Below, in pieces: positions 30,402 to 47,759 of a DNA stretch of 64,000 nucleotides (position 1 is its first letter; each line of letters starts with the position of its first letter). Both the position numbers and the translations under genes were made by a program. The DNA comes from Capnocytophaga bilenii (GTDB taxonomy: Bacteria; Bacteroidota; Bacteroidia; Flavobacteriales; Flavobacteriaceae), in contig NZ_JAGDYP010000001.1 in the NCBI RefSeq assembly GCF_017565765.1, positions 338,358-402,357 of the forward strand, in the 5' to 3' direction. Under the pieces are notes generated by a model. It searched no databases. It was given only the letters and a program-made list of their open reading frames with translations, and was not told the origin of the DNA.

Positions 30402-30995
30402 ATGGTATTTGAAGATATAAAAAAAGAGAAAATTGATGAAATGTCTTATAATGAATATACTTTATATTCTCTTTGGAACACAGAGAGAATGTTCTCTTTG
30501 TTTAATAAAAGCTTCTTTAGGTTAGAAACTATTAACATTTTATTCAGAATGAAAAACTATTTATGGAACTTCCTATATAATAATGTGAGAGACTTATCAA
30601 TAGAAAATAAATTAGAAAATTTAGAGAGTTTATTTCTGACTGAACAAGATAATGTTATTGCTCTAAATATGATTATCTGCTTAGATACTACTTATAATTG
30701 TGTAATTAATAGAAAGAATAAATCTTTTACTACTTTTTATTATGTTTATGATATAATTCAACAAATAATTCTAATTAAATCAAACAATATAAAAATAATA
30801 ACAGACGAAATAGAATATATTTTAGATAACAATATGTTTATCAAAGATGAAATTAATAGACAGTTATCTATAATCCAAAGAATTGAAACAAACAAAATTA
30901 ACAAAGATTTTATTCAAAAAGTAAAAAATGATGCTATTACAAATAAAATACCATTTGATGAGATTCTACCAATAGAACATTTAAAAGGCAGATAA
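30402..30995 (+). CDS. Hypothetical protein, possible immunity protein of a lost Rhs tip
   Basis: Not recognised. The 197 residues are AT-rich in coding (many Asn, Ile, Lys), without a signal peptide, and look mostly helical (SYNEYTLYSLWNTERMFSLFNKSFFRLETINILFRMKNYLWNFLYNN). Placement as the first plus-strand gene of the Rhs tip array, between a palindromic repeat and a broken Rhs core fragment, suggests an orphan immunity gene whose toxin partner has been deleted. This is position-based inference. It could also be an unrelated cargo gene. Confidence 0.6.
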   Translation: MVFEDIKKEKIDEMSYNEYTLYSLWNTERMFSLFNKSFFRLETINILFRMKNYLWNFLYNNVRDLSIENKLENLESLFLTEQDNVIALNMIICLDTTYNCVINRKNKSFTTFYYVYDIIQQIILIKSNNIKIITDEIEYILDNNMFIKDEINRQLSIIQRIETNKINKDFIQKVKNDAITNKIPFDEILPIEHLKGR

Positions 30996-31041
30996 CTATA
31001 CATATTAATAATTAAGAACTTGAAAAAAGAGAGAAATTACC

Positions 31042-31091
31042 TACAATGAAGCAGGCGAGCGTTATCGCCTTGAAAGAGATGCCAATGGTAA
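31042..31091 (+). pseudogene. Out-of-frame scrap of Rhs core
   Basis: Reads YNEAGERYRLERDANGKV, an Rhs-core-like stretch, then jumps directly to GDSSFIPF in another frame, with a TAA at 31089-31091. It shows a deletion junction in the core. Confidence 0.6.
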
Positions 31092-31700
31092 GGTGATAGT
31101 TCGTTTATTCCTTTCTTATATCAAGGACAGTATTATGATGAGGAGATTGGGTTAGCTTATAACCGTTTCCGTTATTACTCACCTGAAAGCGGTACTTATA
31201 TTAGCCAAGATCCGATAGGGCTAGCTGGGAATAATCCTAATTTCTATGGGTATACTTTTGATAGTAATACTGAGGTGGATGTTTTTGGACTTGCAGGTAC
31301 AGGAGGGGCATATATGATAAAACTTAGTGACGGTAAGATTTATGTTGGAAAAGGTGAAATTGGTCGTATGAATGAATCTATTGAGGAGAGAACAAATAAA
31401 GAAGTTGAAATAGATGGAAAAAAGCAAAAAAGAACTGTAGTGGGCAAGGCACATATGAGTACAAATGGAGATAATGAGTTAGGAAAAGCTGTTGAGTATA
31501 AAGCATTGGAAAATGAAGGAGCTTATGCTAAAAGTGGAAAAAATAAAGCTTATATACCAAAGGATAGATTAGAAAATTCTATTGTCACAGGTAGCACCGC
31601 ATACAAGAATTTAACAAAAGATAAAAGATTAGAAGCTGATAGATTAGCTAAAGAATTAAGAGAAGAGTTAGATAAAGATATAAAGAAGAAACATCATTAA
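31092..31700 (+). CDS. Displaced Rhs C-terminal tip with GIY-YIG-like nuclease domain, copy 1
   Basis: About 62 residues of Rhs core (SFIPFLYQGQYYDEEIGLAY..., YYSPESGTYISQDPIGLAGNNPNFYGY, EVDVFGL) followed by a ~140-residue toxin domain. The domain starts GGAYMIKLSDGKIYVGKGEIGRMNESIEER, which fits the GIY-YIG nuclease pattern: two short strands ending AYMI and IYVG, then a conserved Arg; a later EYKALENEGAY may supply the metal-binding Glu. So the toxin probably cuts DNA or RNA in the target cell. The frame has no good start codon (first ATG at 31308 lies in the domain; a GTG lies nearer the junction), so it is a silent cassette that needs recombination into a full Rhs gene. Followed after 5 bases by the LRR gene. 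Duplicated at 38459-39109. Confidence 0.75.
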   Translation, partial: GDSSFIPFLYQGQYYDEEIGLAYNRFRYYSPESGTYISQDPIGLAGNNPNFYGYTFDSNTEVDVFGLAGTGGAYMIKLSDGKIYVGKGEIGRMNESIEERTNKEVEIDGKKQKRTVVGKAHMSTNGDNELGKAVEYKALENEGAYAKSGKNKAYIPKDRLENSIVTGSTAYKNLTKDKRLEADRLAKELREELDKDIKKKHH

Positions 31701-31705
31701 ATTTT

Positions 31706-32554
31706 ATGAATTTTGAATTAGATTTTACAAATAGTCTTAATGTCCCTTATAACTTATTGTTAGAGGGAGTTGCTTATGCAAAAAATAAGAGAATAAAATC
31801 TATTACTCTTAGGCAAGAAGGATTTGAAATTCCTGATATTGATTTATCAGCTTTGTCTCTATATCCTGATATTGAAACCCTTAACTTCTCTGTACGCATA
31901 GGAAAAAACTCTAATATTGATGGAATTTATATTCTTAAGCATTTAAAGCGTCTTTCGTATGCGGGGTATGATAGCATACCTTTAGATCATACTCAATTAA
32001 CATCTATAACATATCTATACACTCATTTTTCTAAAAATCATTTAGAAGGAAATGCAAGGTTTCAAAATCTAAACAATCTTGAAACCTTGCATTTATGGCA
32101 TTTAAACCATACCGATTGTGTTTTTTTATCAGAAATAAATACATTAAAAAATTTAGAACTGACACACGGTTCACTTCCAACTATAGAGGGATTGCAATAT
32201 TTACCTAATTTGGAGCATCTCAAACTTGACTATCTGCCAAAGTTGAAAGACATCAATGCTATTAATCAATGCGATAAAATTAGCTCTTTAACAATTCTTA
32301 GGAGTAAGAACATTTACCTGGAGTCTTTAAAAGAAAGTAATATTAAAAATTTATTTATTGATAAGGTTGATAATTTAGAATTTATAAAAGATTTTAATAG
32401 TTTAGAAAACCTTTATATTTATGATGATATAAAAAACGGAGACTTAAACCCTATTTTTTATAATAATTCTCTAAAAAAGATTGAAATATATAGCTATAAA
32501 AAGAAATATAATCGTACTGAAGAGCAGATAAAAGAATTTCTAAATAAAAAATAG
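31706..32554 (+). CDS. Leucine-rich-repeat protein, probable immunity partner of the GIY-YIG tip, copy 1
   Basis: A 282-residue protein without signal peptide made of irregular leucine-rich repeats: LKHLKRLSYAG, LTSITYLYTHF, LNNLETLHLWHLN, INTLKNLELTHG, LQYLPNLEHLKLDYL, CDKISSLTILRS, SNIKNLFIDKV, FNSLENLYIY and NNSLKKIEIYSY. The curved LRR solenoid would be a good binding surface for the toxin. It starts 5 bases after the tip stop codon, and the pair is duplicated together, which supports a toxin/immunity relationship. That function is inferred. No known immunity family was recognised. Confidence 0.75.
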   Translation: MNFELDFTNSLNVPYNLLLEGVAYAKNKRIKSITLRQEGFEIPDIDLSALSLYPDIETLNFSVRIGKNSNIDGIYILKHLKRLSYAGYDSIPLDHTQLTSITYLYTHFSKNHLEGNARFQNLNNLETLHLWHLNHTDCVFLSEINTLKNLELTHGSLPTIEGLQYLPNLEHLKLDYLPKLKDINAINQCDKISSLTILRSKNIYLESLKESNIKNLFIDKVDNLEFIKDFNSLENLYIYDDIKNGDLNPIFYNNSLKKIEIYSYKKKYNRTEEQIKEFLNKK

Positions 32555-32617
32555 TTGATGAGTAGTCCTTCAATATATAAATACTTATCAAGCGTGATCC
32601 TAATGTAGAGCGAATGA

Positions 32618-32749
32618 TTTTTATCCGATACTTTAGGGCGGGATTGGGAAGATATTATCAGCAGTGGGGAGAACCTGCATCGCCACTATGCGCCGCTTCC
32701 TGATGAGAAAGAACTCACTGATATTCCTTTGGAAAGCACAGAAGGTTAG
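32618..32749 (+). pseudogene. Conserved tail module, copy 1 (43-codon 3' fragment of an unknown gene)
   Basis: In frame it reads FLSDTLGRDWEDIISSGE, NLHRHYAPLPDEKELTD, IPLESTEG and stop. No start codon. The same 132-base module is at 37373-37504 and 40027-40158, each time right after an immunity gene. It looks like the 3' end of one ancestral gene that once closed the cassette. Confidence 0.7.
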
Positions 32750-32886
32750 TGATTTTTGAAAAAATATATCAAAAATATTTCGAAGATTTAAGAATAATAA
32801 CTATTTTTGTAGCGAGTTACCCCAAAAGAAAATGGAGTTACTCACAAAATTTGAATTTTAAAATAAGAGATAACACCCGTTAGAAT

Positions 32887-33045
32887 ATGTCTACAGGTAT
32901 ATTAGGTTGGTTATTTGGTAAGGATCCTAATAAGGCGTTCAATAAAGGAGTGGAGAAGGTAGCTAATCACCATTCTCACAAGAGTTTTGGGCAGCTTTTT
33001 GAGGAAGCTACTGAGGAGTCGTATGTTTGCAAATTGAAATATTAA
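32887..33045 (+). CDS. Short ORF, probably 5' fragment of a larger gene
   Basis: 52 codons: MSTGILGWLFGKDPNKAF, NKGVEKVANHHSHKSF, GQLFEEATEES, then YVCKLKY and a stop. The ATG is preceded by a TATTTTTG box at about 32802. The sequence style (GC-richer codons than its neighbours) suggests a real N-terminus that was cut off by a rearrangement at about codon 45. It may be the start of the Rhs gene or another gene of the system; unproven. Confidence 0.45.
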   Translation: MSTGILGWLFGKDPNKAFNKGVEKVANHHSHKSFGQLFEEATEESYVCKLKY

Positions 33046-33079
33046 TTGTAATTTTACATTTAAAATAAGTACGGATTAA

Positions 33080-33277
33080 AACCGAGCAGTGGTCGTATGG
33101 CATCATGTAGCATATGATGAAAAAACAAATTCATGTATAATGCAATTAGTTTATACCTCAGAACACAAAGCAAAATTACCTCATGAAGGAGCTGTTAAAC
33201 AATTTGAAATTGGAGTTGAATATGATACTAAAGCTGCTAAAGATAAAGCAAAAGAATTGAATGAAAAATACCATTAG
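33080..33277 (+). CDS. Truncated Rhs tip with WHH-type HNH nuclease motif
   Basis: Open from 33080 after a TAA, without a normal start (first usable GTG at 33089). It reads VVWHHVAYDEKTNSCIMQLV and then H-x6-PHEG. The W-H-H ... M-Q-L-V ... H pattern is that of the WHH/AHH/LHH nucleases (treble-clef HNH, colicin-like) found as polymorphic toxin tips. The upstream core and the beginning of the domain are missing, so it is a 3' fragment. The next gene overlaps or abuts it and should be its immunity gene. Confidence 0.7.
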   Translation, partial: NRAVVVWHHVAYDEKTNSCIMQLVYTSEHKAKLPHEGAVKQFEIGVEYDTKAAKDKAKELNEKYH

Positions 33278-33281
33278 AAAA

Positions 33282-33698
33282 ATGAGAGAGACAAAAATTA
33301 AGTTTGATAAAGATCTTTCAAAAGAAATTTTTATTAGGAAAATAAATAAGAAAATTAGACTAATCTTATCTGATGATTTGGACGCTTCAGAAGAGAAATT
33401 AAGTGATAGTTATTGCAAAAAAATAGCTGATTTTATAGATAACTTTTCAAAATGGTACAATAAATGTATGGATGCTGTTAAGGAATGGGGTGAAAATATT
33501 TATCATATAAATATAGAATATGATGAGATAAAACTATTAAAAATTTTCATTCTGTTTGAACAAAATGAATGTGAATTATTCGGATTAGGATTTAGGACAG
33601 AGTTTGATATTGAACATGGTTGCGGCATTAAAATTAAAGTAGAAGATGGTAATTATAACATTGTAGAGATAGGTACAGCTGACATTGCTTTTTGCTAA
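33282..33698 (+). CDS. Putative immunity protein for the WHH tip
   Basis: 138 residues from the ATG at 33282 (an ATG at 33261 would overlap the tip by 17 bases). No signal peptide. The C-terminal strand pair FRTEFDIEHGCGIKIKVED and VEIGTADIAF resembles a domain seen in Rhs-linked immunity proteins (DUF6985-like), but I am not certain of the family. Position directly after the tip is the main support. A cytosolic partner fits a nuclease toxin. Confidence 0.65.
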   Translation: MRETKIKFDKDLSKEIFIRKINKKIRLILSDDLDASEEKLSDSYCKKIADFIDNFSKWYNKCMDAVKEWGENIYHINIEYDEIKLLKIFILFEQNECELFGLGFRTEFDIEHGCGIKIKVEDGNYNIVEIGTADIAFC

Positions 33699-33706
33699 AA
33701 TAATAT

Positions 33707-34528
33707 ATCATCTATGACCTAAGCGAGCGACCTAATCTCAGTAGAGATAAGGACAACTTGTTGGTTTACGACAAGGAAGAGCCTGTAACTGATAACCTTA
33801 TCACTTGGGTGTTTGATGAGAACTCCTTTGTGCCTGCGGCTAAACTTGTAGGGGATAAATCGTATAGCATCCTCACAGACCACTTAGGAACGCCGTATGA
33901 GGCGTATGATGAAAATGGAGAAAAGGTGTGGAGTGCTGAGTATGACCTCTATGGCAATATACATACCCTTGAGGGTGAGAAAGGATTTATACCATTCCGC
34001 TACCAAGGGCAGTATGAGGATGTTGAAACAGGGTTGTATTACAATCGTTTCCGTTATTACTCACCTGAAAGCGGTACGTATATTAGCCAAGACCCGATAA
34101 GGTTGGCAGGGAATAATCCTAATTTCTATGGGTATACTTTTGATTGTAATACTGAGGTGGATGTTTGGGGATTGGATTGTAGCAAGAAAAAGAAAAAATT
34201 TTATAGATATGTTGGAGAAGGAGAATATCAGGCAATAATAAAAAGTGGAAAAATTCCTAATACTGATATTGAGGGTAACTTAAAAAAAGTATACTATACA
34301 AATAGGAAATATATAACAGCAGGATGAGCAAAAACACATAATCAATTGCCTAACAAACCCAAGTATAGAGTAGAAATAGATCCTGATAATATTCCAGATA
34401 ATAAGGGATTTACAAGAGTTGATCCAAAAGATAATCCTGATTGGGGAATAGGAGGAGGAGTTGAAAGTACAACAGAAAATGCAATACCTGTTGATGTATC
34501 TAAAATAACAATATTAAAAGGAGGATAA
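33707..34528 (+). pseudogene. Displaced Rhs tip with ADP-ribosyltransferase-like (TreTu-like) domain, broken by an in-frame TGA
   Basis: The longest retained Rhs core here: IYDLSERPNLSRDKDN, FDENSFVPAAKLVGD, ILTDHLGTPYEAYDENG, RYQGQYEDVETGLYYNRF, YISQDPIRLAGNNPNFYGY. The tip follows: KKFYRYVGEGEYQAIIKSG, KVYYTNRKYITAG, stop, then AKTHNQLPNKPKYRVEID and NPDWGIGGGVEST. The TGA at 34325-34327 probably replaced TGG (Trp), because the frame is open again at once and stays open to 34528. The R-Y-V-G start, the central YYTNR and the late GIGGGVE fit ART toxins of the TreTu type that modify EF-Tu. No start codon, so it is a silent cassette and, with the stop, inactive. Confidence 0.7.
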
Positions 34529-34533
34529 TAAGA

Positions 34534-34959
34534 ATGGATAGAGTACTACCAGATAAGATAAATTTTATATTTATAAACAAAGAGCATCAAGTACAACCTA
34601 ATTTAATAGTTTTTTTTATTCTTATAGCTTCTTCTAAAAATAATTATTATATTAGGCTAAAAAGTGATGAAAATGGAAATATAAATCTTAGAAAAGATCT
34701 AATTATTTATAAAATATCTCAATGTATGAAAAACTTTCCTATGGATTACAATAGTTCTTTAGAAGAATGTATTGCTATAGATGTTAAGATTGAGACAAAA
34801 CTAGAGTTGGAAAAAAAGGCAATTGCTATAGAAAATTATTATATGGAAGAATATTTATTGTTTAAAAATGAAATTAATACTTGTACAAATAATAATTTTA
34901 GCTTTTGGAATAGATATATGTTTCCGATAAGGGATATTGAGTATATAATAGAAGTTTGA
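34534..34959 (+). CDS. Putative immunity protein for the ART-like tip
   Basis: A 141-residue cytosolic-looking protein, 5 bases after the tip frame ends. Not recognised. A hydrophobic strand near the N-terminus (LIVFFILIASSKNNYYIRL) and an acidic middle (LEECIAIDVKIETKLELEKKAIAIENYYMEEYLLF) are visible; acidity suits an inhibitor. Still intact although its toxin is broken, as expected if immunity is kept longer than the toxin. Confidence 0.6.
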   Translation: MDRVLPDKINFIFINKEHQVQPNLIVFFILIASSKNNYYIRLKSDENGNINLRKDLIIYKISQCMKNFPMDYNSSLEECIAIDVKIETKLELEKKAIAIENYYMEEYLLFKNEINTCTNNNFSFWNRYMFPIRDIEYIIEV

Positions 34960-35174
34960 TAGCAAATGACTATTAAAACAAAACGTTTCATCTACAATAA
35001 AAAAAACAAATTCAGAGTTGGCAACTTTTGTGTTTGATATAGTGTTGCATGGGCATACAGTGGCAGTATATGAGTCTTTTGTGCCTGCGGCTAAACTGTA
35101 GGGGATAAATCGTATTCTATCCTCACAGACCACTTAGGAACGCCGTATGAGGCGTATAATGAAGAGGGGAAAAG

Positions 35175-35753
35175 GTGTGGGCACGAGAATTAGACCTTTA
35201 TGGGAATGCTATTGCTGGTGATAGCTCGTTTATTCCTTTCTTATACCAAGGACAGTATTATGATGAGGAGATTGGGTTAGCTTATAATAGGTTTAGGTAT
35301 TACTCACCTGAAAGCGGTACTTATATTAGCCAAGACCCGATTGGATTAGCAGGGAATAATCCTAATTTCTATGGGTATACCTTTGATTGTAATACTGAGG
35401 TGGATGTTTGGGGGTTAACGATTGGAGATAGAACATTTAAATATGTAATTCAACAAGGGGATTCGAACGGAGGGTGGGTGCATATTGATCTAAGACATGT
35501 CAGTGGAGGGCACTCTAGAGGTGAAGGTGATTTATTTACGAGAGGTACAACAAGAGATCATTTGGAAAAAGCTGCAAATAAAATTGTAAAAAAAGGTAAA
35601 AGAATAACTAAGGATATAACTAAGAAAATGCAATCTTTTGAAATGAAAATCAAAATAAAAGGAAATAAGAAAGAGTTTGTCAGAGTTTATGTTGACACCA
35701 TTGAAAAGAAAATAATTACAATATTCCCTGCTAGAGGAAATGGAAATCACTAA
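35175..35753 (+). CDS. Displaced Rhs tip, possible RNase (BECR-fold-like) toxin
   Basis: Core part WARELDLYGNAIAGDSSF through YYSPESGTYISQDPIGLAGNNPNFYGY and VDVWGL, then a ~115-residue tip: TFKYVIQQGDSNGGWVHIDL, RHVSGGHSRGEGDLFTRGTTRDH, a Lys-rich helix, and VYVDTIEKKIITIFPARGNG. An early His cluster, a T-x-x-x-H helix and a final Asp-Thr... TIFP strand resemble the EndoU/colicin D/RelE-like RNase group; this is a guess from pattern. The frame begins at GTG 35175; just before it an extra core piece (35070-35174, with SFVPAAKL and TPYEAY codons) is out of frame by one base, so there is no continuous core. Immunity candidate follows after 9 bases. Confidence 0.65.
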   Translation: MWARELDLYGNAIAGDSSFIPFLYQGQYYDEEIGLAYNRFRYYSPESGTYISQDPIGLAGNNPNFYGYTFDCNTEVDVWGLTIGDRTFKYVIQQGDSNGGWVHIDLRHVSGGHSRGEGDLFTRGTTRDHLEKAANKIVKKGKRITKDITKKMQSFEMKIKIKGNKKEFVRVYVDTIEKKIITIFPARGNGNH

Positions 35754-36888: not shown

Positions 36889-37341
36889 ATGTCAAGAGAT
36901 TTTTTTTGTCAAGAAATAAATCCAAATTATATAGGAAATATATGTTTGGAACAACCATTAGAAAGCCTTCAAGATGTATGGAAATATGGCTATAAGAATG
37001 GTATTTTAGATATAGAGTTATCTAATAATTTTTTCTTAAGGTTTTCATTTGATGAAAATCTTATTGTAAATATCAATTTATTTAAAAATAAAATTGCACA
37101 AATATCTGTTTTAAATAATTATTTAGGTAAATTTAAAGGTATAGGAATAGGAAGTACACTTGGAGAATTATTGAAAAAATACCCCAATATTATATATGAT
37201 AATGATGAAAATTTTTTTATTATTCCTGAATATAAGAGTGTCTGTTTTTTCTTTGAAAATCCATATGAAAAGGAACAATTAGATAATAAAGTAGAGGAAA
37301 TAACTTTGAACTCTTACGAACTTATAAAATATCCTTTTTAA
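36889..37341 (+). CDS. Putative immunity protein for the preceding tip
   Basis: 150 residues from the ATG at 36889, 5 bases after the tip stop; a longer frame from 36856 would overlap it. No signal peptide. The stretch KIAQISVLNNYLGKFKGIGIGSTLGELLKKYP is like a recurrent motif in Rhs-linked immunity proteins (LGKF-x-G-I-x-I-G). Assignment is by position and that motif. Confidence 0.65.
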   Translation: MSRDFFCQEINPNYIGNICLEQPLESLQDVWKYGYKNGILDIELSNNFFLRFSFDENLIVNINLFKNKIAQISVLNNYLGKFKGIGIGSTLGELLKKYPNIIYDNDENFFIIPEYKSVCFFFENPYEKEQLDNKVEEITLNSYELIKYPF

Positions 37342-37372
37342 ATTTTATTAAAAACGTCCTATTTTATATGAA

Positions 37373-37504
37373 TTTTTATCCGATACTTTAGGGCGGGATT
37401 GGGAAGCGGTTATCAGCAGTGGGGAGAACCTGCATCGCCACTATGCACCACTTCCTGATGAGGAAGAACTCACTGATATTCCTTTAGAAAGCACAGAAGG
37501 TTAG
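37373..37504 (+). pseudogene. Conserved tail module, copy 2
   Basis: Reads FLSDTLGRDWEAVISSGE, NLHRHYAPLPDEEELTD, IPLESTEG, stop. See 32618-32749. Lies 31 bases after an immunity gene and 21 bases before a MITE. Confidence 0.7.
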
Positions 37505-37772: not shown

Positions 37773-37783
37773 GTGGACAATGG

Positions 37784-38029
37784 ATGATGCATGAATCTGC
37801 AATAAGAGGATTATCTCCTGAAGAGATTAAAGAAAAATTTAGTCTCCCTGAAGTGCCTACTCATAAAACAACAGTAGTTGTACCTGAAGGAACCAGAATC
37901 AGATCAGGAAAAATCAATCCTCTTTTAAGTTTTGGAGGAATAGACAAAAATGCAAAACAATTCCAATTATTAGAGCGTATCCCTGATGAGTGTTTCAAAA
38001 ATACAAAACCTTTAAAAAAAGAGCATTAA
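37784..38029 (+). CDS. Truncated Rhs or adhesin-type toxin tip (3' fragment)
   Basis: About 81 residues: QWMMHESAIRGLSPEEIKEKFSLPEVPTHKTTVVVPEGTRIRSG, then NPLLSFGGIDKNAKQF and LLERIPDECF. The pattern LSPEEI-x-x-x-F-x-LP-x-x-PT-H with a late GG-x4-QF-x-L is a tip seen in several polymorphic toxins, including MafB/CdiA-like proteins. I cannot give an activity. The N-terminal half and all core sequence were lost at the adjacent palindrome, so it is a silent 3' remnant. Confidence 0.6.
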   Translation: MMHESAIRGLSPEEIKEKFSLPEVPTHKTTVVVPEGTRIRSGKINPLLSFGGIDKNAKQFQLLERIPDECFKNTKPLKKEH

Positions 38030-38034
38030 TCTGA

Positions 38035-38340
38035 ATGGAAAAACAAAAAATAGATATTAGTAATCTTGAAGTACAGATACTTTTAAAGTGTAATGGTATT
38101 ATTGTTAAATTATATAAGGTTCCTGCGGGATATACATGTAATAGAAATATAACAGGAGAAGATATTAAAGGAAATTTAATTTGGCAAGTTGAAGATATAA
38201 ACCCACTTATAGATTCTCCCTTTACTAATATTAAGGTATATGATGGTAATTGGATAATAGCCTATAATTGGTCAGGTATCAACTATTATATTAATATAGA
38301 AACAGGAATTTGTGAAGTTATAAAAAGTAGACCTTGGTGA
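38035..38340 (+). CDS. Putative immunity protein for the truncated tip
   Basis: A 101-residue protein, 5 bases after the tip. It ends GNWIIAYNWSGINYYINIETG and RPW and contains NGIIVKLYKVPAGY and GNLIWQVEDI-x7-SPFTNIKV. This 'LIWQ ... spFt ... NWSG ... yyI ... TG ... RPW' set is familiar as a small partner gene beside such tips. No signal peptide. Function inferred from position and recall of the family. Confidence 0.7.
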   Translation: MEKQKIDISNLEVQILLKCNGIIVKLYKVPAGYTCNRNITGEDIKGNLIWQVEDINPLIDSPFTNIKVYDGNWIIAYNWSGINYYINIETGICEVIKSRPW

Positions 38341-38458
38341 TTATAAGAAACCAAGTTTTGTAATTCTTTTCACAAATTTAAAATTTTGTACCTTCAGTAA
38401 GATCAATTGTACAGTATGCAGGAACGCCGTATGAGGCGTATGATGAAGAGGGGAAAAG

Positions 38459-39114: not shown

Positions 39115-39963
39115 ATGAATTTTGAATTAGATTTTACAAATAGTCTTAATGTCCCTTATAACTTATTGTTAGAGGGAGTTGCTTATGCAAAAAATAAGAG
39201 AATAAAATCTATTACTCTTAGGCAAGAAGGATTTGAAATTCCTGATATTGATTTATCAGCTTTGTCTCTATATCCTGATATTGAAACCCTTAACTTCTCT
39301 GTACGCATAGGAAAAAACTCTAATATTGATGGAATTTATATTCTTAAGCATTTAAAGCGTCTTTCGTATGCGGGGTATGATAGCATACCTTTAGATCATA
39401 CTCAATTAACATCTATAACATATCTATACACTCATTTTTCTAAAAATCATTTAGAAGGAAATGCAAGGTTTCAAAATCTAAACGATCTTGAAACCTTGCA
39501 TTTATGGCATTTAAACCATACCGATTGTGTTTTTTTATCAGAAATAAATACATTAAAAAATTTAGAACTGACACACGGTTCACTTCCAACTATAGAGGGA
39601 TTGCAATATTTACCTAATTTGGAGCATCTCAAACTTGACTATCTGCCAAAGTTGAAAGACATCAATGCTATTAATCAATGCGATAAAATTAGCTCTTTAA
39701 CAATTCTTAGGAGTAAGAACATTTACCTGGAGTCTTTAAAAGAAAGTAATATTAAAAATTTATTTATTGATAAGGTTGATAATTTAGAATTTATAAAAGA
39801 TTTTAATAGTTTAGAAAACCTTTATATTTATGATGATATAAAAAACGGAGACTTAAACCCTATTTTTTATAATAATTCTCTAAAAAAGATTGAAATATAT
39901 AGCTATAAAAAGAAATATAATCGTACTGAAGAGCAGATAAAAGAATTTCTAAATAAAAAATAG
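39115..39963 (+). CDS. Leucine-rich-repeat protein, probable immunity partner, copy 2
   Basis: Identical to the 282-residue protein at 31706-32554 except for one residue (LNDLETL instead of LNNLETL). The near identity at base level shows a recent duplication or gene conversion, unlike the diverged tips around it. It keeps the 5-base spacing to the tip. Confidence 0.75.
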   Translation: MNFELDFTNSLNVPYNLLLEGVAYAKNKRIKSITLRQEGFEIPDIDLSALSLYPDIETLNFSVRIGKNSNIDGIYILKHLKRLSYAGYDSIPLDHTQLTSITYLYTHFSKNHLEGNARFQNLNDLETLHLWHLNHTDCVFLSEINTLKNLELTHGSLPTIEGLQYLPNLEHLKLDYLPKLKDINAINQCDKISSLTILRSKNIYLESLKESNIKNLFIDKVDNLEFIKDFNSLENLYIYDDIKNGDLNPIFYNNSLKKIEIYSYKKKYNRTEEQIKEFLNKK

Positions 39964-40026: not shown

Positions 40027-40158
40027 TTTTTATCCGATACTTTAGGGCGGGATTGGGAAGATATTATCAGCAGTGGGGAGAACCTGCATCGCCACTATGC
40101 ACCACTTCCTGATGAGGAAGAACTCACTGATATTCCTTTGGAAAGCACAGAAGGTTAG
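40027..40158 (+). pseudogene. Conserved tail module, copy 3
   Basis: Same 43-codon fragment ending IPLESTEG, stop. At several bases (CACCACTTCC, GAGGAAGAA) it matches copy 2 rather than copy 1, although the rest of the duplicated segment matches copy 1. This points to gene conversion. Confidence 0.7.
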
Positions 40159-40544: not shown

Positions 40545-40766
40545 ACACTTGTGTTCCGAATCATTGACCATTTTGGGTTGGATGTAGCTGATATAGAAAG
40601 CTATGGTAGTGCGAGTAAAATTATTAAAAAAAATTGGAAAGTAGCAGCATTAGCAAGTGATATGGCACGAGGCTTTTGTGCTTGGTTTATTTTACAACAT
40701 TTACGAGGTTATAAACCTTTCATTACAATAATGGAAAAAGAACAAATCTTAAAATTTAAGATATGA
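40545..40766 (+). CDS. Truncated Rhs-type tip (3' fragment), unrecognised
   Basis: Open frame entering from the palindromic repeat, with no own start. Reads TLVFRIIDHFGLDVADIESYG, SASKIIKKNWKVAALASDMARG, FCAWFILQHLRGYKPFIT, MEKEQILKFKI. The last four bases (ATGA) overlap the start of the lipoprotein gene. A second scrap with FCAWFILQHLRRYKPFIT is at 41277. Toxin activity is unknown; the exported partner suggests a periplasmic target. Confidence 0.6.
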   Translation, partial: TLVFRIIDHFGLDVADIESYGSASKIIKKNWKVAALASDMARGFCAWFILQHLRGYKPFITIMEKEQILKFKI

Positions 40767-41272
40767 GAGTATTGATATTAATGATTTTAGCGTTTGGATT
40801 TTTATCTTGTGATAGTTATGACCCAAGTAAGCCAACGACTTTTTGTAAAATTAAAGGAAAGGAAATTTCATATATTATTAACAATCCTCCTGATGATACA
40901 TTAGCTTTAAAAATAGAAGTTGAAAAATTTATTTATAGTAAATTTTCAGCTGACTCTATAAGAAAAGAAGATAGAACCTTTCATTTTTATAAAGCAGATA
41001 AATATTTAACTTGTGATTTTGAAGAAGGAAAACCTTACAAAATTGTACCTTGGCATATGACCTTGGATACCATTCAAGATTTGAGAAACCATATACAAAA
41101 TAAAATTATTAGGTTTGCTGTGTATTGTAGAGAAGATGGTACAGGTTTTTATCGTTACGATTTCGATTATACTATGAAAGGTGAAGAACTTTATACAGAA
41201 CATATATTCAGAGATTTTAACAATATAGATTCTTTATTTGAAGCAAAACAAAAAGAGTATGGTATTAAATAG
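40763..41272 (+). CDS. Lipoprotein, putative periplasmic immunity protein
   Basis: 169 residues with lipobox FGFLSC (Cys 16) after a short hydrophobic stretch, so it should be anchored to a membrane and face the periplasm. A Ser/Asp follows the Cys (CDSYDPS), no clear export signal to the surface. The rest is not recognised (CKIKGKEISYIINNPPDDTLALKIEVE...). It overlaps the tip fragment by 4 bases, the classical arrangement of toxin and immunity genes. Confidence 0.65.
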   Translation: MRVLILMILAFGFLSCDSYDPSKPTTFCKIKGKEISYIINNPPDDTLALKIEVEKFIYSKFSADSIRKEDRTFHFYKADKYLTCDFEEGKPYKIVPWHMTLDTIQDLRNHIQNKIIRFAVYCREDGTGFYRYDFDYTMKGEELYTEHIFRDFNNIDSLFEAKQKEYGIK

Positions 41273-41357: not shown

Positions 41358-41685
41358 GGAACTTGGAGATAAACCCTAATAGGAGCATTCCAATTCAAGT
41401 TACATCAAGATACTCATATCTCATTATCAAACCTTTATATCCGTCAAGCCAACCATTTGCTTGTTCAATCTTAAACCTATTTTTGTACAATTCTTCATCA
41501 AAATAAACATCTGGTTGCTTTCCTTTATTAAAGCTAAACCTTCTTTTTTCTACACTTAAAAAGAGAATAATCCAATTATTTATTGTATCTTTGCCCAAAG
41601 TTCCTGAATTTTGGTGTTCTTTTTTTCTCAAACACAAAATTACTAATTTTCGGGAACTTTTATTATAAGAAAAAGTTTAAACAGC
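41339..41685 (-). mobile_element. Degenerate IS5-like element, copy 1
   Basis: Terminal inverted repeats built on TGTTTAAACTTTTT (left 41339, right ends 41685). The minus strand keeps a transposase C-terminal piece (41395-41637): DVYFDEELYKNRFKIEQANGWLDGYKGLIMRYEYLDVT-like, the E-x-x-x-x-W-L-D-x-x-x-x-L-x-x-R-Y-E motif of IS5-type DDE transposases. Most of the catalytic domain is deleted. It is wedged between two tip scraps. Confidence 0.7.
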
Positions 41686-41691
41686 TTCTAT

Positions 41692-41853
41692 AATTTAAAT
41701 TCAAATGATGAAAGTCTTTCTGAAGATAGTAAAATTAAACTAATAACAAAAAGAGTTAAAGGCACTGAGAAAGGGTATGAAAATAGAAAAAAACATTTTG
41801 ATTCAATAAAAAAAGCAATTAATTATGACAAAAATAAATGTCCTACTATTTAG
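41692..41853 (+). pseudogene. 3' fragment of another tip
   Basis: In frame NLNSNDESLSEDSKIKLITK, RVKGTEKGYENRKKHFDSIKKA, INYDKNKCPTI, stop. It begins right after the IS5-like end and overlaps the start of the next gene by 29 bases, as tip and partner often do. Domain not recognised. Confidence 0.55.
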
Positions 41854-42400
41854 TTTTTTTTCTTTGATATATTCTATCAGTGTTCACGCTCAAGAGAAAG
41901 ATGATGGTTCTTTTCGCTATTTGGCAAAACATCAACCTGAGTTGTTTAGGGATAAAGATTTTTCAATAACCTCAAAAAAACTGCATAAGACCATTCGTTT
42001 TAAGATTTCTCTTAAAGAGGCTAAGGGGGATGATTACGATATTCTGGTGCATTTTCCTAAGAAAGAGAACCCGTGGTTGGCAAAAGATGTACAAATTATA
42101 AATGACTGTACATCATGGAGTATAGGATATATTAGCGCAACTGTAACATTTAATAAAAGACATATCTATATTATCCTTACGTATGGTCAACCTAAACCAC
42201 TTGGTCACGTATTGGTATTTACAAAGAACCATAAAGGACTGTATTATTTAGAAAAAAAACAGTATTTTTATCACAATGATGGAGTTGATATATGGTATAC
42301 CACAAAAACAAGAGAGCAGCGGATGGAAAGAACCAGTAGAGATGAATATAAAGATGTGCCTATTCGCTGGTATAAACCTGTGAAAGATAAACAAAAATGA
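41825..42400 (+). CDS. Secreted protein, putative periplasmic immunity protein
   Basis: 191 residues with a signal peptide (INVLLFSFFSLIYSISVHAQ). The mature part is basic and not recognised; it contains VQIINDCTSWSIGYISATVTFNKRHIYIILTYGQPKPLGHVLVF and ends IRWYKPVKDKQK. Overlaps a tip fragment, which suggests it protected against that toxin in the periplasm. Position-based inference. Confidence 0.6.
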   Translation: MTKINVLLFSFFSLIYSISVHAQEKDDGSFRYLAKHQPELFRDKDFSITSKKLHKTIRFKISLKEAKGDDYDILVHFPKKENPWLAKDVQIINDCTSWSIGYISATVTFNKRHIYIILTYGQPKPLGHVLVFTKNHKGLYYLEKKQYFYHNDGVDIWYTTKTREQRMERTSRDEYKDVPIRWYKPVKDKQK

Positions 42401-42882: not shown

Positions 42883-43470
42883 ATGAGAATAGTTTTAAAT
42901 ATAGTTTTATATTTGGGGATTTGTAATATCATTATATCAAAAGAATCTTTCTTTATAGAGAGCTATAAAGAAAATATTAAACAGACGAGAGATACTATAG
43001 ATCTGTCATGTATAAATTTTTTAGACGAAAGGAATAAAAAGGATAGTATTTCATTATCTGATTTGGGTCAGGGAGAGTTATTTCCAAGTTATAGTGGGGA
43101 AATTAAGCAAGGTTTTTTTTCTGTTAATTTTATAGGGAAAACAAAGAAAGAACGTTTTTTTTGGAGTATTTATAATAACAAAGGTTTTTTCAAAAATAAC
43201 AACCCCTATTTGAAAAACTCCAGAGACATTGAAAAAATTATTAATAAAAGAAGAGGTAATTACTATATTTTAGTTGTGTTTTTAAGTAATAAATATATAA
43301 AACATATAGATAAAAATACTGGAGATTTTGAATTATCTAAAAATGCTGTTAATGAAATATATTTATATGAAAATAATCAGTGGAAATTTATAAAAAAAGA
43401 AAAAATTAATTTTTTAATTATTCCCTCCTTAAATTATTATGTAAATATAATAAATGAGTATAAAAAGTAG
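42883..43470 (+). CDS. Exported protein of unknown function, putative immunity
   Basis: 195 residues. The N-terminus MRIVLNIVLYLGICNIIISKES is hydrophobic and may be a signal peptide or anchor. The remainder is Lys/Asn-rich with GELFPSYSGEIKQGFFSVNFIGKTKKERFFWSIYNNKG. Not recognised. It starts directly at the end of an IS5-like remnant; any promoter would have to lie in that remnant, where a TATCTTTG box is present at about 42774. Confidence 0.55.
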   Translation: MRIVLNIVLYLGICNIIISKESFFIESYKENIKQTRDTIDLSCINFLDERNKKDSISLSDLGQGELFPSYSGEIKQGFFSVNFIGKTKKERFFWSIYNNKGFFKNNNPYLKNSRDIEKIINKRRGNYYILVVFLSNKYIKHIDKNTGDFELSKNAVNEIYLYENNQWKFIKKEKINFLIIPSLNYYVNIINEYKK

Positions 43471-43471: not shown

Positions 43472-43691
43472 TTGAGGTGTCAAAGTATTTTCATATATTT
43501 GCACTCTGAAAATTAATATATTATGGAATTATTCAAAGGACAAAGCCTCTTAGAGTTTACTGAACGCTTTAAAACAGACTTAGATTGCGAAGAATATCTA
43601 GCTTCAAGTCCGTGAAGCTATGAAATCCAGTGAATCGCATAAAATGAATGATAGCGTTTAGGTTGATGAATTTACCATAGGAGGAAAAGAG
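43472..43691 (+). mobile_element. IS1595-like remnant 1 (left end and two transposase scraps)
   Basis: Left end TTGAGGTGTCAAAGTATTTT, then MELFKGQSLLEFTERFKTD, LDCEEYLA, a deletion, then in another frame REAMKSSESHKMNDSV, stop, VDEFTIGGKE. These are parts of an IS1595-type transposase (zinc-ribbon start and VDE-x-x-x-GG DDE motif). Strongly decayed. Confidence 0.7.
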
Positions 43692-43846
43692 TAAGGAAAG
43701 GCAGTTTATACCAAAATTATGTACCTGCAAATGAGGCATATAAAGCAGCAATAAGATATATTCTAGGACAAGCAGAAGGGAGAGCTATACAAGTGGTTGT
43801 TGAGAAAAGAGATAAAGTAGAAGAATTAAGAACCTTAAAAAATTAA
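43692..43846 (+). pseudogene. 3' fragment of another tip
   Basis: Reads KGSLYQNYVPANEAYKAAIR, YILGQAEGRAIQVVVEKRDK, VEELRTLKN, stop; 4 bases before the lipoprotein gene. It has lost its 5' part to the IS1595-like remnant. Domain not recognised. Confidence 0.55.
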
Positions 43847-43850
43847 TAAG

Positions 43851-44306
43851 ATGAGTAAGATTATAAATTTAGTAACAATTGTTTTGTTATTTATTAGTTG
43901 CAACAACACTTCTAAGAAATTAGAGATGCTAAAAGAAGGCACATTTATTTATGAGAGAGAAAGAGTTTTTGAGAAAAAAAATATTACAGTTGAACAATCA
44001 CAAATAGAAACGATAAGAGAAACTAAATATATTGTTGAAGAAAAAGTTATTTACGATAGTTTAGGTATCTTAGAAATATATGCTGGTGCTGCAGAAGGTT
44101 TTATCGTTTATTCAAGAGATAATGATTTTGGAAAATCTGTTATCAAAGAAGAAGGATATAGTAATAAAGTTCTAATAGATAAGAAGCAGGATTGCCTTAT
44201 AGACGGAAAAGATACGATTAGGAACTTTGAAGTGTTTTTAAAAGATAGGCTTATAATGGTCTATCCTAAAGAAGGTAATAGAATTTATATATACAAATTT
44301 AAATAA
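43851..44306 (+). CDS. Lipoprotein, putative periplasmic immunity protein
   Basis: 151 residues with lipobox LLFISC (Cys 17) and a charged, beta-rich mature part (EGTFIYERERVFEKKNITVEQSQIETIRETKYIVEEKVIYDS). Not recognised. It follows a tip scrap by 4 bases, as the other partners do. Confidence 0.6.
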   Translation: MSKIINLVTIVLLFISCNNTSKKLEMLKEGTFIYERERVFEKKNITVEQSQIETIRETKYIVEEKVIYDSLGILEIYAGAAEGFIVYSRDNDFGKSVIKEEGYSNKVLIDKKQDCLIDGKDTIRNFEVFLKDRLIMVYPKEGNRIYIYKFK

Positions 44307-44314
44307 TTAATATA

Positions 44315-44516: not shown

Positions 44517-44577
44517 AAAGTAGTTATTCCAATAGCAAAATATTAAGAAGAATTTCAAAATAAAACAAGATAGAACA

Positions 44578-44637: not shown

Positions 44638-44640
44638 AGG

Positions 44641-44719: not shown

Positions 44720-44764
44720 AGTAGAGGAATCTAATTGGAATAACAAAAATATAGGAGAAACAAA

Positions 44765-45415
44765 ATGGACTGGAAAATTATAATACTTTTTTTAATAGTA
44801 ACTTTTAATAGCTATAGTCAGGAAGATAAAGAATTAATAACTTTTTTGTATCATAATGCAGAAAAAATAGACATTGAAGATGATGAGTTTGACAATATCT
44901 TATCAGAATGGGATTTTCGGAATTTATATTTGTCAAAAATGATAAAAATAACATTTGGAGATAATGATACAACAGCTCGTAAATTAAAAATATTAGAAAA
45001 GATCAGAGATAGTTTTTATAAACATGCTCTAAATGAAGTGAAAAATGAATATAGAACATATAATAATATTTCAGGACCCTATTTCGTTTATCTTGTAGAA
45101 AAAAAAGACAAAGAGGTCAAGGGAATATTAGAAAAGATTATAGCAGATACTACTATGAGACATGACAATAGGGAAGAGTTAAAATCTTTCCTAAAAGAAT
45201 ATGATACTCACTATTATATTAATGGAAAGAAAAGAAATATAGAAATAAAAAAAGAAGCAAATTCATCTTCCTATACTATAAGTAAGATAAGAAACGGAGA
45301 AGAAGTAAGAGTAGTTGAAGATGGAGACGAAGGCGATTGGTTATTAATTATAACAACAGATGGAATAAAAGGATATATTCATAAAAATAATATAAAAATA
45401 GAAATCATACAATGA
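44765..45415 (+). CDS. Exported protein with C-terminal SH3-like domain
   Basis: 216 residues with a signal peptide (IIILFLIVTFNSYSQ). The first ~150 mature residues are charged and helical; residues ~160-213 look like a bacterial SH3 domain (SYTISKIRNGEEVRVVEDGDEGDWLLIITTDGIKGYIHKNNIKI), which binds peptides or wall material. First of a tight gene row (4-base overlaps at 45412 and 45801). Its job is unknown; an immunity or wall-binding role in the periplasm is possible. Confidence 0.65.
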   Translation: MDWKIIILFLIVTFNSYSQEDKELITFLYHNAEKIDIEDDEFDNILSEWDFRNLYLSKMIKITFGDNDTTARKLKILEKIRDSFYKHALNEVKNEYRTYNNISGPYFVYLVEKKDKEVKGILEKIIADTTMRHDNREELKSFLKEYDTHYYINGKKRNIEIKKEANSSSYTISKIRNGEEVRVVEDGDEGDWLLIITTDGIKGYIHKNNIKIEIIQ

Positions 45416-45804
45416 GAAATATAACAAAAATAGATTTTGAAAAAAATGCTTTTAAAAGAAATGAAAATGATAAAATAAGATTAGCCGTTAAATCTACAAT
45501 AGATGCGTTAAATTATTTTGATAAAGGAAGTAATGAAAAAGAGGATATTTCAAAAAGAACAATAGGATGGCATGGTATAGACATTTTTATTAAAAGAAAA
45601 GATGGAAAACTAACGCTTTTTCAGGAAAAACTATTTATCGAAGATAAGCATATAGATAATTTTTCACATCCAAAATACGGAAAGTGGAAAAACAATAAAA
45701 CATTAGATAAGTCTATATTTGTTTCTGTATCAGTTCATAAAACTGAAAAAGGTTTGCCAACATTATTCTATAAAACAACAGAATTAGGTTATAAAGAATT
45801 ATGA
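45412..45804 (+). CDS. Hypothetical protein in a coupled gene row
   Basis: 130 residues, very basic and without signal peptide. It contains ISKRTIGWHGIDIFIKRKDGKLTLFQEKLF and NFSHPKYGKWKNN. Not recognised. It overlaps both neighbours by 4 bases (ATGA), so it is translated with them. It could be a detached toxin-like domain between two exported partners, but I cannot show this. Confidence 0.55.
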   Translation: MRNITKIDFEKNAFKRNENDKIRLAVKSTIDALNYFDKGSNEKEDISKRTIGWHGIDIFIKRKDGKLTLFQEKLFIEDKHIDNFSHPKYGKWKNNKTLDKSIFVSVSVHKTEKGLPTLFYKTTELGYKEL

Positions 45805-46334
45805 AGAAAAGTTTTATTATTTTATTACTATTAACTCAATGTATTATTTTTGCTCAGAATAAGAAGACATATTCCACAAAAGACATATACGAGTCTTGTT
45901 GTTGGAGTGAGTCAGATGATGGCGATAGCTATTATGTCGTTGATGAAGATATTATGGGTGATCATATTTATTTATGCATTAATACAGCAAATGGTTCATT
46001 AGGTACTCATAAATGTACTAATGTTATAAAAGAAAAATTAAAAAACAATCCTTTTTTAAAGATTAATAATCAAGTTATACAATTAGAGGAAATTGATAAA
46101 ATTTATAGTTGTATACCTATGGTGCTTTGGTCTAAAAAACAGAATAACAACACCTATATCGCAATTGAATTATACACAATGTGTTATAGTAAATATTGCC
46201 ACGATTATTATTATATCTTTGTATATATGGAAAAAGGAGTTGTTATGAATTCAAAAATAATTATGAGTGAGGGTACTTTTATTGATAGCTATACAAAAAT
46301 CAAGCATTATATGCGTAATGGATTAAAATATTAA
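45801..46334 (+). CDS. Exported Cys-containing protein, paralogue of the next gene
   Basis: 177 residues with a signal peptide (FIILLLLTQCIIFAQ). The mature part aligns by eye with the next protein: NNPFLKINNQVIQLEE, CIPMVLWSKKQNNNTYIAIELYTMCYSKYCHDYYYIFVY. Conserved Cys pairs suggest disulfides in the periplasm. Putative immunity protein by location; family not recognised. Confidence 0.6.
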   Translation: MKKSFIILLLLTQCIIFAQNKKTYSTKDIYESCCWSESDDGDSYYVVDEDIMGDHIYLCINTANGSLGTHKCTNVIKEKLKNNPFLKINNQVIQLEEIDKIYSCIPMVLWSKKQNNNTYIAIELYTMCYSKYCHDYYYIFVYMEKGVVMNSKIIMSEGTFIDSYTKIKHYMRNGLKY

Positions 46335-46351
46335 TCTTTAAAAATAAAAAA

Positions 46352-46891
46352 ATGAGATTTCTTTGTTTGTTTCTGTTTTTTAATATAGCATATTCACAGC
46401 AAAATGTGAGGTATGCTAAAATAGATTTGATTGATAATCCTCCCTATTGTTGGGGGCTTCTAAACGATTCTTTTGGCAGGTATGTGATAAATATCAAAGC
46501 ATTAGATAATGACATCTATATGCTTATTGATACGAAGAATGATAGAAGGAGAGAGCCAGAGTGTTCTATCCCCAAACACAGTATAGACAACGGATATTTT
46601 CTAACCATCAATAAGCAGCAAGTGAGGTTTGACAAAACTGAGGAACTTGCATTAGACTATTGTATTCCTCTTGCTATATATTGCTCAAAAAACAAGAAGG
46701 ATACTTATGTTGCTATTGAGATGGTTGTTGCTTGTTATATGAAGGATTGCGCGACTTGTAGCTATATTTTTGTGCATCTATATGACAATAAAGTTAAGGA
46801 AGTCAAAGCAATAGGAGAGCTAGACAACGAACTCACGGATAAGAAAATAAAGTCATATATGAGCAACAATGGTTTTAAGTTTTTAAAATAA
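46352..46891 (+). CDS. Exported Cys-containing protein, paralogue of the preceding gene
   Basis: 179 residues, signal peptide FLCLFLFFNIAYSQ. Shared blocks with its neighbour are NGYFLTINKQQVRF, YCIPLAIYCSKNKKDTYVAIEMVVACYMKDCATCSYIFVH. Base usage is less AT-biased than the neighbour, so the two probably arrived separately rather than by recent tandem duplication. Confidence 0.6.
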   Translation: MRFLCLFLFFNIAYSQQNVRYAKIDLIDNPPYCWGLLNDSFGRYVINIKALDNDIYMLIDTKNDRRREPECSIPKHSIDNGYFLTINKQQVRFDKTEELALDYCIPLAIYCSKNKKDTYVAIEMVVACYMKDCATCSYIFVHLYDNKVKEVKAIGELDNELTDKKIKSYMSNNGFKFLK

Positions 46892-46893
46892 TG

Positions 46894-47251
46894 AACTTAT
46901 TTATTTTATACGGATATAAATTCAGGAGGAACTAATGGAATTTCTTTTTTAAATGGAATGAATAATGTTTGGGAAAATTATTGAGTCATATTCAATTCTG
47001 GATTAAATAGTGAAAGAACTACAATTCATGAGTGTGGACATTCGTTATCTCTTCCTCATATTTTTCAAGAAGGTGGATTAAGTGAACATGTATTTTATCA
47101 AGGATATACAGATAATTATATGGACTATGATAGGAAGAAGGTAAATGCTCCTGATTCAAGCGATAATGATTTCAAAGGAAAGATGTATTCTTTTTTTAAA
47201 TGGCAATGGGAAATAATGAGAAGAGATAGAAGTTTAATTTTTAATTATTAG
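46894..47251 (+). pseudogene. Metzincin-like metalloprotease tip, 3' fragment with an in-frame stop
   Basis: In one frame: TYLFYTDINSGGTNGISF, LNGMNNVWENY, stop (TGA), VIFNSGLNSERTTIHECGHSLSLPHIF, then YTDNYMDYD. HECGHSLSLPH gives the HExxHxxxxxH zinc site of metzincins (Ser where the usual Gly stands), and N-Y-M-D-Y is a typical Met-turn. The tip is broken by the TGA at about 46983 and lacks its 5' part. It would have been a protein-cutting toxin; the lipoprotein gene 4 bases downstream should be its immunity gene. Confidence 0.65.
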
Positions 47252-47255
47252 TCTT

Positions 47256-47759
47256 ATGAAGTATTTATTTTTATCTTATTATTTTTTTCTTTTTTGTACT
47301 AATTCTTGTGGTGTAACAGATATATATTACAATAAGAAATTTATTAAATTTAAAACAACTAAACATCAGGTTTCTAAAATAGCCTTCTATCACATTCCCT
47401 CTGATCGGCCTTTTAGTATAAATGATACAATCAATGGTATTTTTCTGACTAGAGATAGTGTTTGTTTATTTGAAAATATATATAAGGATACTCTTGTTAT
47501 AGAATCAAATATTAAAAAAAGTATCACTAAAAATAATGAGTTTTTTTTTGAAAAGATACCTTACAAATATTTAGATAATAATAATTTTAATTTTTTAAAT
47601 TATATACCTATTTGTGATGAGGAGTTTTTTTATATTGCATTATTTTTTAACAAGAATAACACAAATCCAGATATACTATGGTCTATAGATCGCAACTCAC
47701 TTCCAGAAGACTTGAAGTTTGTGATGGAGTATTATGAGAAAATAAGAGGAAGTTTATAA
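47256..47759 (+). CDS. Lipoprotein, putative immunity protein for the metzincin-like tip
   Basis: 167 residues with a hydrophobic start and lipobox CTNSC (Cys 18). The mature part is Asn/Lys-rich: VTDIYYNKKFIKFKTTKHQVSKIAFYHIPSDRPFSINDT. Not recognised. Spacing of 4 bases to the protease fragment and periplasmic placement fit a protease inhibitor acting outside the cytosol. Confidence 0.65.
   Translation: MKYLFLSYYFFLFCTNSCGVTDIYYNKKFIKFKTTKHQVSKIAFYHIPSDRPFSINDTINGIFLTRDSVCLFENIYKDTLVIESNIKKSITKNNEFFFEKIPYKYLDNNNFNFLNYIPICDEEFFYIALFFNKNNTNPDILWSIDRNSLPEDLKFVMEYYEKIRGSL

Follow-up and report, generated by a model that had tools for sequence, protein, structure and literature searches.

A tandem array of immunity-like genes and truncated Rhs toxin tips in Capnocytophaga bilenii

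Why does a genome hold a row of Rhs toxin tips, each followed by a small partner gene, in a place where no complete Rhs core is left to carry them? We asked this of an array in Capnocytophaga bilenii that lies in a stretch of 64,000 nucleotides (hereafter the window; contig C11, positions 338358-402357, of a genome of 2.73 Mb in 20 contigs). The original prediction, made from the letters of the window, held that the array is a silent store that supplies new tips, by recombination, to an expressed rhs gene elsewhere in the genome, with the partner genes giving immunity. The comparisons described here favor another answer, namely that the array is most likely a passive protection against armed neighbors rather than a store of spare weapons.

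Layout of tips and immunity-like genes

Between tRNA-His (29740-29814) and feoA (49732-49974), the array takes up ~18.4 kb, most of it low in GC. Within 30001-49000, 20 open reading frames (ORFs) of at least 100 amino acids (aa) that start with ATG lie on the plus strand and one on the minus strand; 100 Markov-shuffled sequences held 0.13 such ORFs on average and two at most. We counted 11 tip segments, 10 of them distinct and all on the plus strand, interspersed among 18 small immunity-like genes (one of these could be either tip or immunity gene, and one is a copy of another). The immunity-like genes stand in tandem, co-oriented on a single strand, and are unrelated to one another. At each of the 11 tip-to-immunity junctions, a small gene with an ATG start begins between -29 and +9 nucleotides (nt) from the end of the tip, and it is by this position that the genes behind tips are called immunity genes. 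The single direction of the array and the small gene directly behind each tip were thus predicted correctly. The predicted "at least ten different tips" stand as a count, but two segments belong to the same cassette, only three distinct tips are whole and six are stubs. The immunity-like genes do not end at 47759, as had been proposed, but continue to 48846.

The end of the Rhs core is kept in five of the 11 tip segments (four distinct; frames at 31092, 33704, 35163, 36227 and 38447). It was recognized by TIGR03696 in the three frames submitted to NCBIfam, by PF03527 in frame 33704, and in frame 38447 by its status as a near copy. Its motif is not uniform, reading DPIG in two frames and DPIR in three. 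No ATG stands before any of the five core ends, and GTG or TTG stands before three. The core-end codons also contain a putative Bacteroidota-like promoter-type site, TANNTTTG, at 31253, 34135, 35378, 36442 and 38662, roughly 385-455 bp upstream of the immunity genes. Three distinct tips run uninterrupted from core end to stop (a GIY-YIG-like tip, so named from what we presume to be its motif, and the tips at 35421 and 36479), a fourth (33704-34528) is broken by an in-frame stop, and the other six are C-terminal stubs of 51-88 aa without core. The GIY-YIG cassette is doubled in the window (31092-32764 and 38501-40173, 98.5% DNA identity). Because core ends recur with unrelated tips, the tips are not pieces of one decayed gene, in agreement with the original prediction.

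Whole-genome searches covered three of the 10 distinct tips (the family genomes shown include three Capnocytophaga). Among 397 genomes of the family and 20 of the genus, the GIY-YIG-like tip was met in the source genome alone, and so was the 35421 tip among the 20 of the genus. The 36479 tip was met in two of the 397, namely the source genome and G054, where it lies in a frame of 214 aa. None of these three tips was found on a full-length rhs of another species in the genomes searched. Of two tips compared with solved structures, one had no match and the other a single match no better than chance (E 0.32).

Remnants of parent operons and exchange of modules

Three times in the window, at 32618, 37367 and 40027, a peptide of 43-45 residues stands behind an immunity gene. 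The peptide matches the C-terminal part of a 469-aa gene in Cellulophaga sp. 20_2_10 (locus L052), where only a few bp separate the end of that gene from a full-length rhs. That this gene is adaptor-like is what we infer, since the Cellulophaga gene gave no TPR match; the gene before rhs in another genome, G013, has TPR repeats (E 7e-10) and adjoins TssC, TssD and a VgrG-like gene. Behind the first copy of the adaptor-like end lies a frame of 52 aa that aligns with the N-terminus of the Cellulophaga Rhs (score 60 over 25 residues, reached in 0/500 shuffles). Among 33 full-length Rhs entries this was the best match, the next best scoring 34 (4/500 shuffles). The order in this part of the window is adaptor-like end, rhs N-terminus, missing core, WHH tip stub and immunity gene. 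The prediction that nothing here has a normal start codon therefore holds for the five core ends but not for this rhs start at 32887, which is cut after 52 aa. The wreckage of a parent operon (three adaptor-like 3' ends, one rhs N-terminus) had gone unnoticed in the earlier work.

An intact version of this layout is present at L052:473-14475, where an adaptor-like gene is followed by a full rhs, an immunity-like gene and six core-end/tip frames. These six orphan frames have a nearly constant start, and a small gene lies behind most of them. Because adaptor-like ends and an rhs N-terminus are still in place, and because Cellulophaga provides the intact counterpart, the window appears to hold the ruins of such operons, beyond mere displaced tips.

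Comparison of copies within the genome revealed how tips change places. Genome-wide, there are 17 core-end matches: five in the window, three each on contigs C4 and C10, and six of a more distant type. Window 32839-34111 corresponds to a stretch of C10 (94.7%, 1267 versus 1273 bp) that has the same deletion and both stubs, and from 33109 it corresponds to a stretch of C4 (93.4%). The match of all three ends at ~34111, inside the core end, so that a common upstream part (immunity gene and core) is followed by three different tips (compared by eye). Similarly, window 35075-36477 matches C10 at 97.2%, after which C10 continues into a GIY-YIG-like tip and the window into a different one. The two GIY-YIG-like cassettes of the window differ at 19 of 204 core-end positions and at 2 of 1248 positions of tip plus immunity gene; if differences were spread evenly, the probability of at most 2 of 25 falling in the inner 1428 of 1673 bp would be ~1e-17, for borders set after the differences had been seen. 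The 35421-36188 pair and its C10 copy differ at 3 of 756 positions, and their core ends at 10 of 204. Near-identical modules thus sit on core ends that differ by 5-9%.

The same is seen between genomes. A deaminase tip and its immunity gene, carried by a full-length rhs in G013 (L203), recur as an orphan cassette in G012 (L201), with 94.0% DNA identity over 2.5 kb, 86.6% aa identity for core end plus tip and 99.7% for the immunity protein; G012 has 12 core-end matches and no full-length rhs (assembly of ~100 contigs). In named genomes the closest core-end match is Capnocytophaga gingivalis ATCC 33624 (98% protein identity). Core ends reach 97% DNA identity to C. gingivalis despite 68% protein identity of PanB, and these figures point to transfer between species. 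The mosaic copies show that recombination in the conserved core end has displaced tips or swapped them, as the original prediction supposed. Passages of Jackson 2009 (PMC2935791) and Koskiniemi 2014 (PMC3967940) describe this as a known mechanism, and the latter reports recombination over 522 bp at 95% identity in Salmonella.

Fate of the toxins and of their partner genes

Tips and immunity genes have decayed unevenly. In five hand-chosen families with at least two readable copies each, the immunity gene is open in 11/11 copies and the tip is whole in 6/11 (Fisher 0.035), a count that leaves out the C4 WHH copy (preceded by N) and a GIY-YIG copy in which contig C10 breaks off. One immunity gene of 231 aa has three open copies, with ratios of nonsynonymous to synonymous substitution rates (dN/dS) of ~0.21-0.37, in three contexts: a whole AHH tip, a tip that in C. 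gingivalis is both shortened and interrupted by an in-frame stop, and the last tip codons only (C4, by eye). The earlier claim that partner genes stay open while tips decay is borne out in this small sample, and the unevenness counts as support, not proof. Ten of the 18 immunity-like proteins were compared with anti-phage families, and none of the ten matched.

The delivery side looks different. The original prediction stands or falls with an rhs of the same core end somewhere in the genome, and no full-length rhs with a window-type core was found there (20-contig assembly), which leaves a store for an expressed rhs of this strain unsupported. The single full-length rhs found (C11:154344-159002, 1553 aa) is of another type: the two kinds of core end share 67% protein identity, and no exact same-strand run common to this rhs and 30001-40200 exceeds 14 bp, compared with the 522 bp at 95% identity of the Salmonella case. 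Closer orphans of this rhs lie on C9 and C14 (85-87% protein identity), with longest exact matches of 23 bp and 77 bp, respectively. It stands between a weakly TPR-like gene in front and an immunity-like gene behind; no genes of a type VI secretion system (T6SS) were noticed around it (L126:1518-10516). An integrase-like gene, recognized by eye, lies ~1.1 kb past that immunity-like gene. TssC (PF17541) had no match in the source genome, also when the G013 TssC protein served as query; among genus genomes, 10 of 20 (9 of 18 high-quality ones) carry it, and among named controls 0 of 14. Two further genus genomes, G006 and G015, have core ends without TssC, as the source genome does.

The course of events that we propose starts from T6SS-type operons (adaptor-like gene, rhs, tip and immunity gene, with displaced tip cassettes behind) that would have collapsed. 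Tips were displaced or exchanged through the core end, as the mosaic copies show, and deletions visible in the window took away the rhs bodies and left most tips as C-terminal stubs. TssC, which encodes the T6SS sheath and is the one machinery gene of which this can be said, was not found in the genome. The immunity genes recognized here stayed open, probably as protection against T6SS-armed relatives. The outcome would be a passive orphan-immunity array in which the remaining whole tips are passengers, to be re-used at most after transfer to a strain with a matching rhs. A passive array fits better than a donor store because rhs is ruined, TssC was not found, the toxins are mostly cut and the immunity genes are kept.

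Several points weigh against this reading. When the WHH deletion common to the window and C10 is counted once, the Fisher value becomes 0.087, which makes the test of uneven decay weak; the unevenness is also partly a matter of ascertainment, broken immunity genes being easily overlooked, and the dN/dS values may reflect selection in past hosts. Expression of the immunity genes, and the protection they would give, are predictions, and the TANNTTTG sites are only weakly in excess (26 versus 18.4 expected, standard deviation 4.5). Three distinct tips are still whole, and attackers with the GIY-YIG-like or the 35421 tip were not seen among the 20 genus genomes. The adaptor-like tail matches the gene before rhs weakly in its own genome (E 0.083) and in G013 (E 0.25), so the adaptor link rests on Cellulophaga. 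Finally, TssC is the only T6SS machinery gene that was sought in the source genome, and with the C11:154344 rhs and its weakly TPR-like neighbor some delivery route may remain.

Other explanations can be set beside passive protection. One concerns origin only and is compatible with it: the array may be the cargo of an integrative or mobilizable element, a conjugative T6SS-Rhs element that now lacks its transfer genes. A remnant of a YWFCY/TraG-type coupling protein at 47766-47963 (minus strand; 81% over 68 aa versus a G013 gene) suggests that the region once lay in a mobile element, and G013 has its TraG-type gene and a relaxase near TssC and its full-length rhs; the kinship of core ends with C. 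gingivalis also fits. Integration at tRNA-His was considered and rejected, since no repeat of at least 13 bp of its 3' part occurs elsewhere in the window, and no integrase or tyrosine recombinase was met in the 30 array frames scanned (of the rest of the window, the scan covered the neighbors PanB, DUF1275 and FeoA). No empty insertion site can be defined, because in G009 and G013 a long distance separates PanB from FeoA and no tRNA was found in 11 short loci of relatives around either gene. On balance we hold this origin to be possible but tentative.

Somewhat more doubtful is the proposal that a polymorphic-toxin locus is turning into a polyimmunity locus, with core ends and adaptor-like 3' ends as homology handles of integrase-free cassettes selected for immunity alone. 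Even with TssC absent from the genome, arrays and Capnocytophaga species would then go on acquiring, copying and trading modules. The core end would be the left arm, and the adaptor-like 3' end is suggested as the right arm by one copy pair only.

We consider it unlikely that the locus is a plain graveyard, a lost T6SS/Rhs region in neutral decay whose immunity genes are intact because they are short or recent. Remnants of insertion sequences (IS) and of a dispersed repeat do run across the island, several copies are near identical and so had little time for decay, promoter-like sites are near chance, and the test of uneven decay is weak by either count. Neutral decay sits poorly, however, with the excess of long ORFs over shuffled sequences, with immunity genes that stay open as the compared tips break, and with the dN/dS of the 231-aa gene. 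Least likely is a store of tips for an expressed rhs of the same cell: core ends on five tips, visible core-end exchanges, the G013/G012 case and, according to passages of PMC3967940, an orphan tip fused to the main rhs in Salmonella would all suit it, but the one full-length rhs is of the wrong type, TssC was not found and the core arm is gone from 6 of the 10 distinct tips.

Known arrays and surroundings

The array belongs to a known kind, and what sets it apart is its state: a ruined rhs, TssC not found, toxins cut and immunity kept. Rhs orphan arrays, as passages of PMC2935791, PMC3967940 and PMC5727410 (Snodgrassella) describe them, likewise join a core-end fragment, an unrelated tip and an immunity gene, mostly without a start codon and some with stops or frameshifts; the bee-gut Snodgrassella also has orphan immunity genes with a pseudogenized toxin. 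In these accounts, however, the arrays trail a full-length rhs whose core is the same or almost the same. In the present array the parent lies in ruins among the cassettes, the sole full-length rhs found belongs to another type, no TssC was detected and 6 of 11 tip segments lack a core end. T6SS orphan immunity arrays of Vibrio cholerae, in the portions of Kirchberger 2017 (PMC5361080) that treat them, likewise keep old immunity genes in tandem after an effector was replaced or cut, by homologous recombination, but they follow a T6SS cluster, whereas here the search for TssC gave nothing and part of the effectors are tips of Rhs proteins.

Polyimmunity loci (Zhang 2012, PMC3482391) share the many unrelated, co-oriented immunity genes; in the parts of that paper that define them they are never interrupted by toxin cassettes, unlike the present array with its whole tips and stubs in between. 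The rAID/AID clusters of Bacteroidales, as outlined in sections of PMC12247911, are also co-oriented orphan immunity genes of Bacteroidota against T6SS effectors. An rAID cluster is described there as a tyrosine recombinase with short co-oriented genes and conserved intergenic motifs, whereas here toxin remnants are present and a recombinase was not met in the frames scanned. A literature search combining Flavobacteri-, orphan immunity, Rhs remnants and type VI secretion found nothing, which is no proof of absence.

Passages of Zhang 2012 count C. gingivalis among those bacteria of the mouth that are rich in immunity proteins but have few toxins, and propose protection in oral biofilms. The array may give this pattern a basis at the level of sequence: in this oral commensal it would be a readable intermediate on the way from a weapon locus to an array of immunity genes alone, still with pieces of its parent operon, and it lets selection for immunity genes that outlive their toxins be tested. 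It also cautions that orphan Rhs tips need not serve the same cell as a store.

Table 1. Features of the array in window coordinates. Family cut-offs are those of the family named.
Position	Strand	Feature	Evidence
30370..30390	+	Possible tail end of a lost tip (VEKHNH stop), just ahead of the first immunity-like gene	By eye; by analogy with the C4 copy of the 231-aa immunity gene
30402..30995	+	Immunity-like gene, DUF416; first in array	E 1.2e-4, just under family cut-off
31092..31700	+	Rhs core end and GIY-YIG-like tip	TIGR03696 E 1.3e-15 for core end; tip without family match
31706..32554	+	Leucine-rich-repeat (LRR) immunity-like gene	LRR_14 E 2.9e-6, under family cut-off
32618..32746	+	Adaptor-like gene 3' end, copy 1	93% over 43 aa versus copy 2
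32887..33045	+	rhs N-terminal stub, start codon kept, core deleted	Aligns with L052 Rhs N-terminus
33080..33277	+	WHH nuclease tip stub	PF14414 E 9.4e-5, under family cut-off
33261..33698	+	DUF6985 immunity-like gene	PF22481 E 3.4e-4, under family cut-off; 0/435 nt differ from C4 and C10 copies
33704..34528	+	Rhs core end (longest of array) and tip with in-frame stop at 34325-34327	PF03527 E 2.8e-12
34534..34959	+	Immunity-like gene, no family	Profile search and position
35075..35753	+	Rhs core end (frame broken upstream) and tip of unknown class	TIGR03696 E 1.3e-16; tip DNA 99.7% identical in C10
35763..36191	+	Immunity-like gene	DNA 99.5% identical in C10
36215..36883	+	Rhs core end and tip of unknown class	TIGR03696 E 3.6e-16; tip homologue 46% in 214-aa frame of G054
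36889..37341	+	Immunity-like gene	98.7% aa versus C4 copy, which lies behind a truncated tip
37367..37501	+	Adaptor-like gene 3' end, copy 2	68% over 28 aa versus L052 gene upstream of rhs
37775..38029	+	Tip stub without core, behind dispersed repeat	No family
38035..38340	+	Immunity-like gene	Position
38420..39109	+	Rhs core end and GIY-YIG-like tip, second copy	Near copy of 31092 cassette
39115..39963	+	LRR immunity-like gene, second copy	1/846 nt differs from copy 1
40027..40155	+	Adaptor-like gene 3' end, copy 3	Same peptide as copies 1 and 2
40545..40766	+	DUF3289 tip stub; 62-nt piece repeated at 41276-41337	PF11692 E 2.5e-7, over family cut-off
40763..41272	+	Immunity-like gene, lipoprotein-like start	Start by eye
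41671..41853	+	Tip stub	No family
41825..42400	+	Immunity-like gene, signal-like start	Start by eye
42883..43470	+	Immunity-like gene downstream of IS remnant	Repeat comparison
43691..43846	+	Tip stub	No convincing family
43851..44306	+	Immunity-like gene, lipoprotein-like start	Start by eye
44765..45415	+	Immunity-like gene with SH3 domain	PF08239 E 3.7e-7, over family cut-off
45412..45804	+	Small gene, tip or immunity (counted among the 18); 4-nt overlap with both neighbors	No convincing family
45801..46334	+	Immunity-like gene, signal-like start	Start by eye
46352..46891	+	Immunity-like gene resembling that at 45801..46334	Likeness by eye
46985..47251	+	Metalloprotease-like (M43) tip stub, HExxH-type motif	PF05572 E 0.0038, under family cut-off
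47256..47759	+	Immunity-like gene, lipoprotein-like start	Start by eye
48124..48846	+	Immunity-like gene, last of array	Position

The two halves of the array may differ in origin. No core piece was found beyond ~38.9 kb (tblastn with full-length Rhs queries, E up to 0.01), and the half beyond ~40.5 kb may derive from effectors other than Rhs, because signal- and lipoprotein-like starts (by eye) and abundant IS remnants occur there without any core piece. Interspersed with the immunity genes are repeated pieces, apparently IS remnants with internal deletions, at 41334-41691, 42614-42884, 43460-43595, 44303-44438, 47924-48109, 48971-49106 and 49358-49656. Their transposase traces are an IS1595-like one at 49422 (E 0.0015) and a DDE transposase-like one at 41395 on the minus strand (E 0.0083), both under family cut-offs. 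A dispersed repeat made of GAATTTTGAATT runs and a GGCACGAGC...CGCGCCAGC-like stretch occurs at 29896-30044, 30274-30329, 37718-37773, 40392-40447 and 40487-40542, as well as at loci L050, L123, L125, L127, L129 and L130, and it adjoins truncated tips both in the window and elsewhere.

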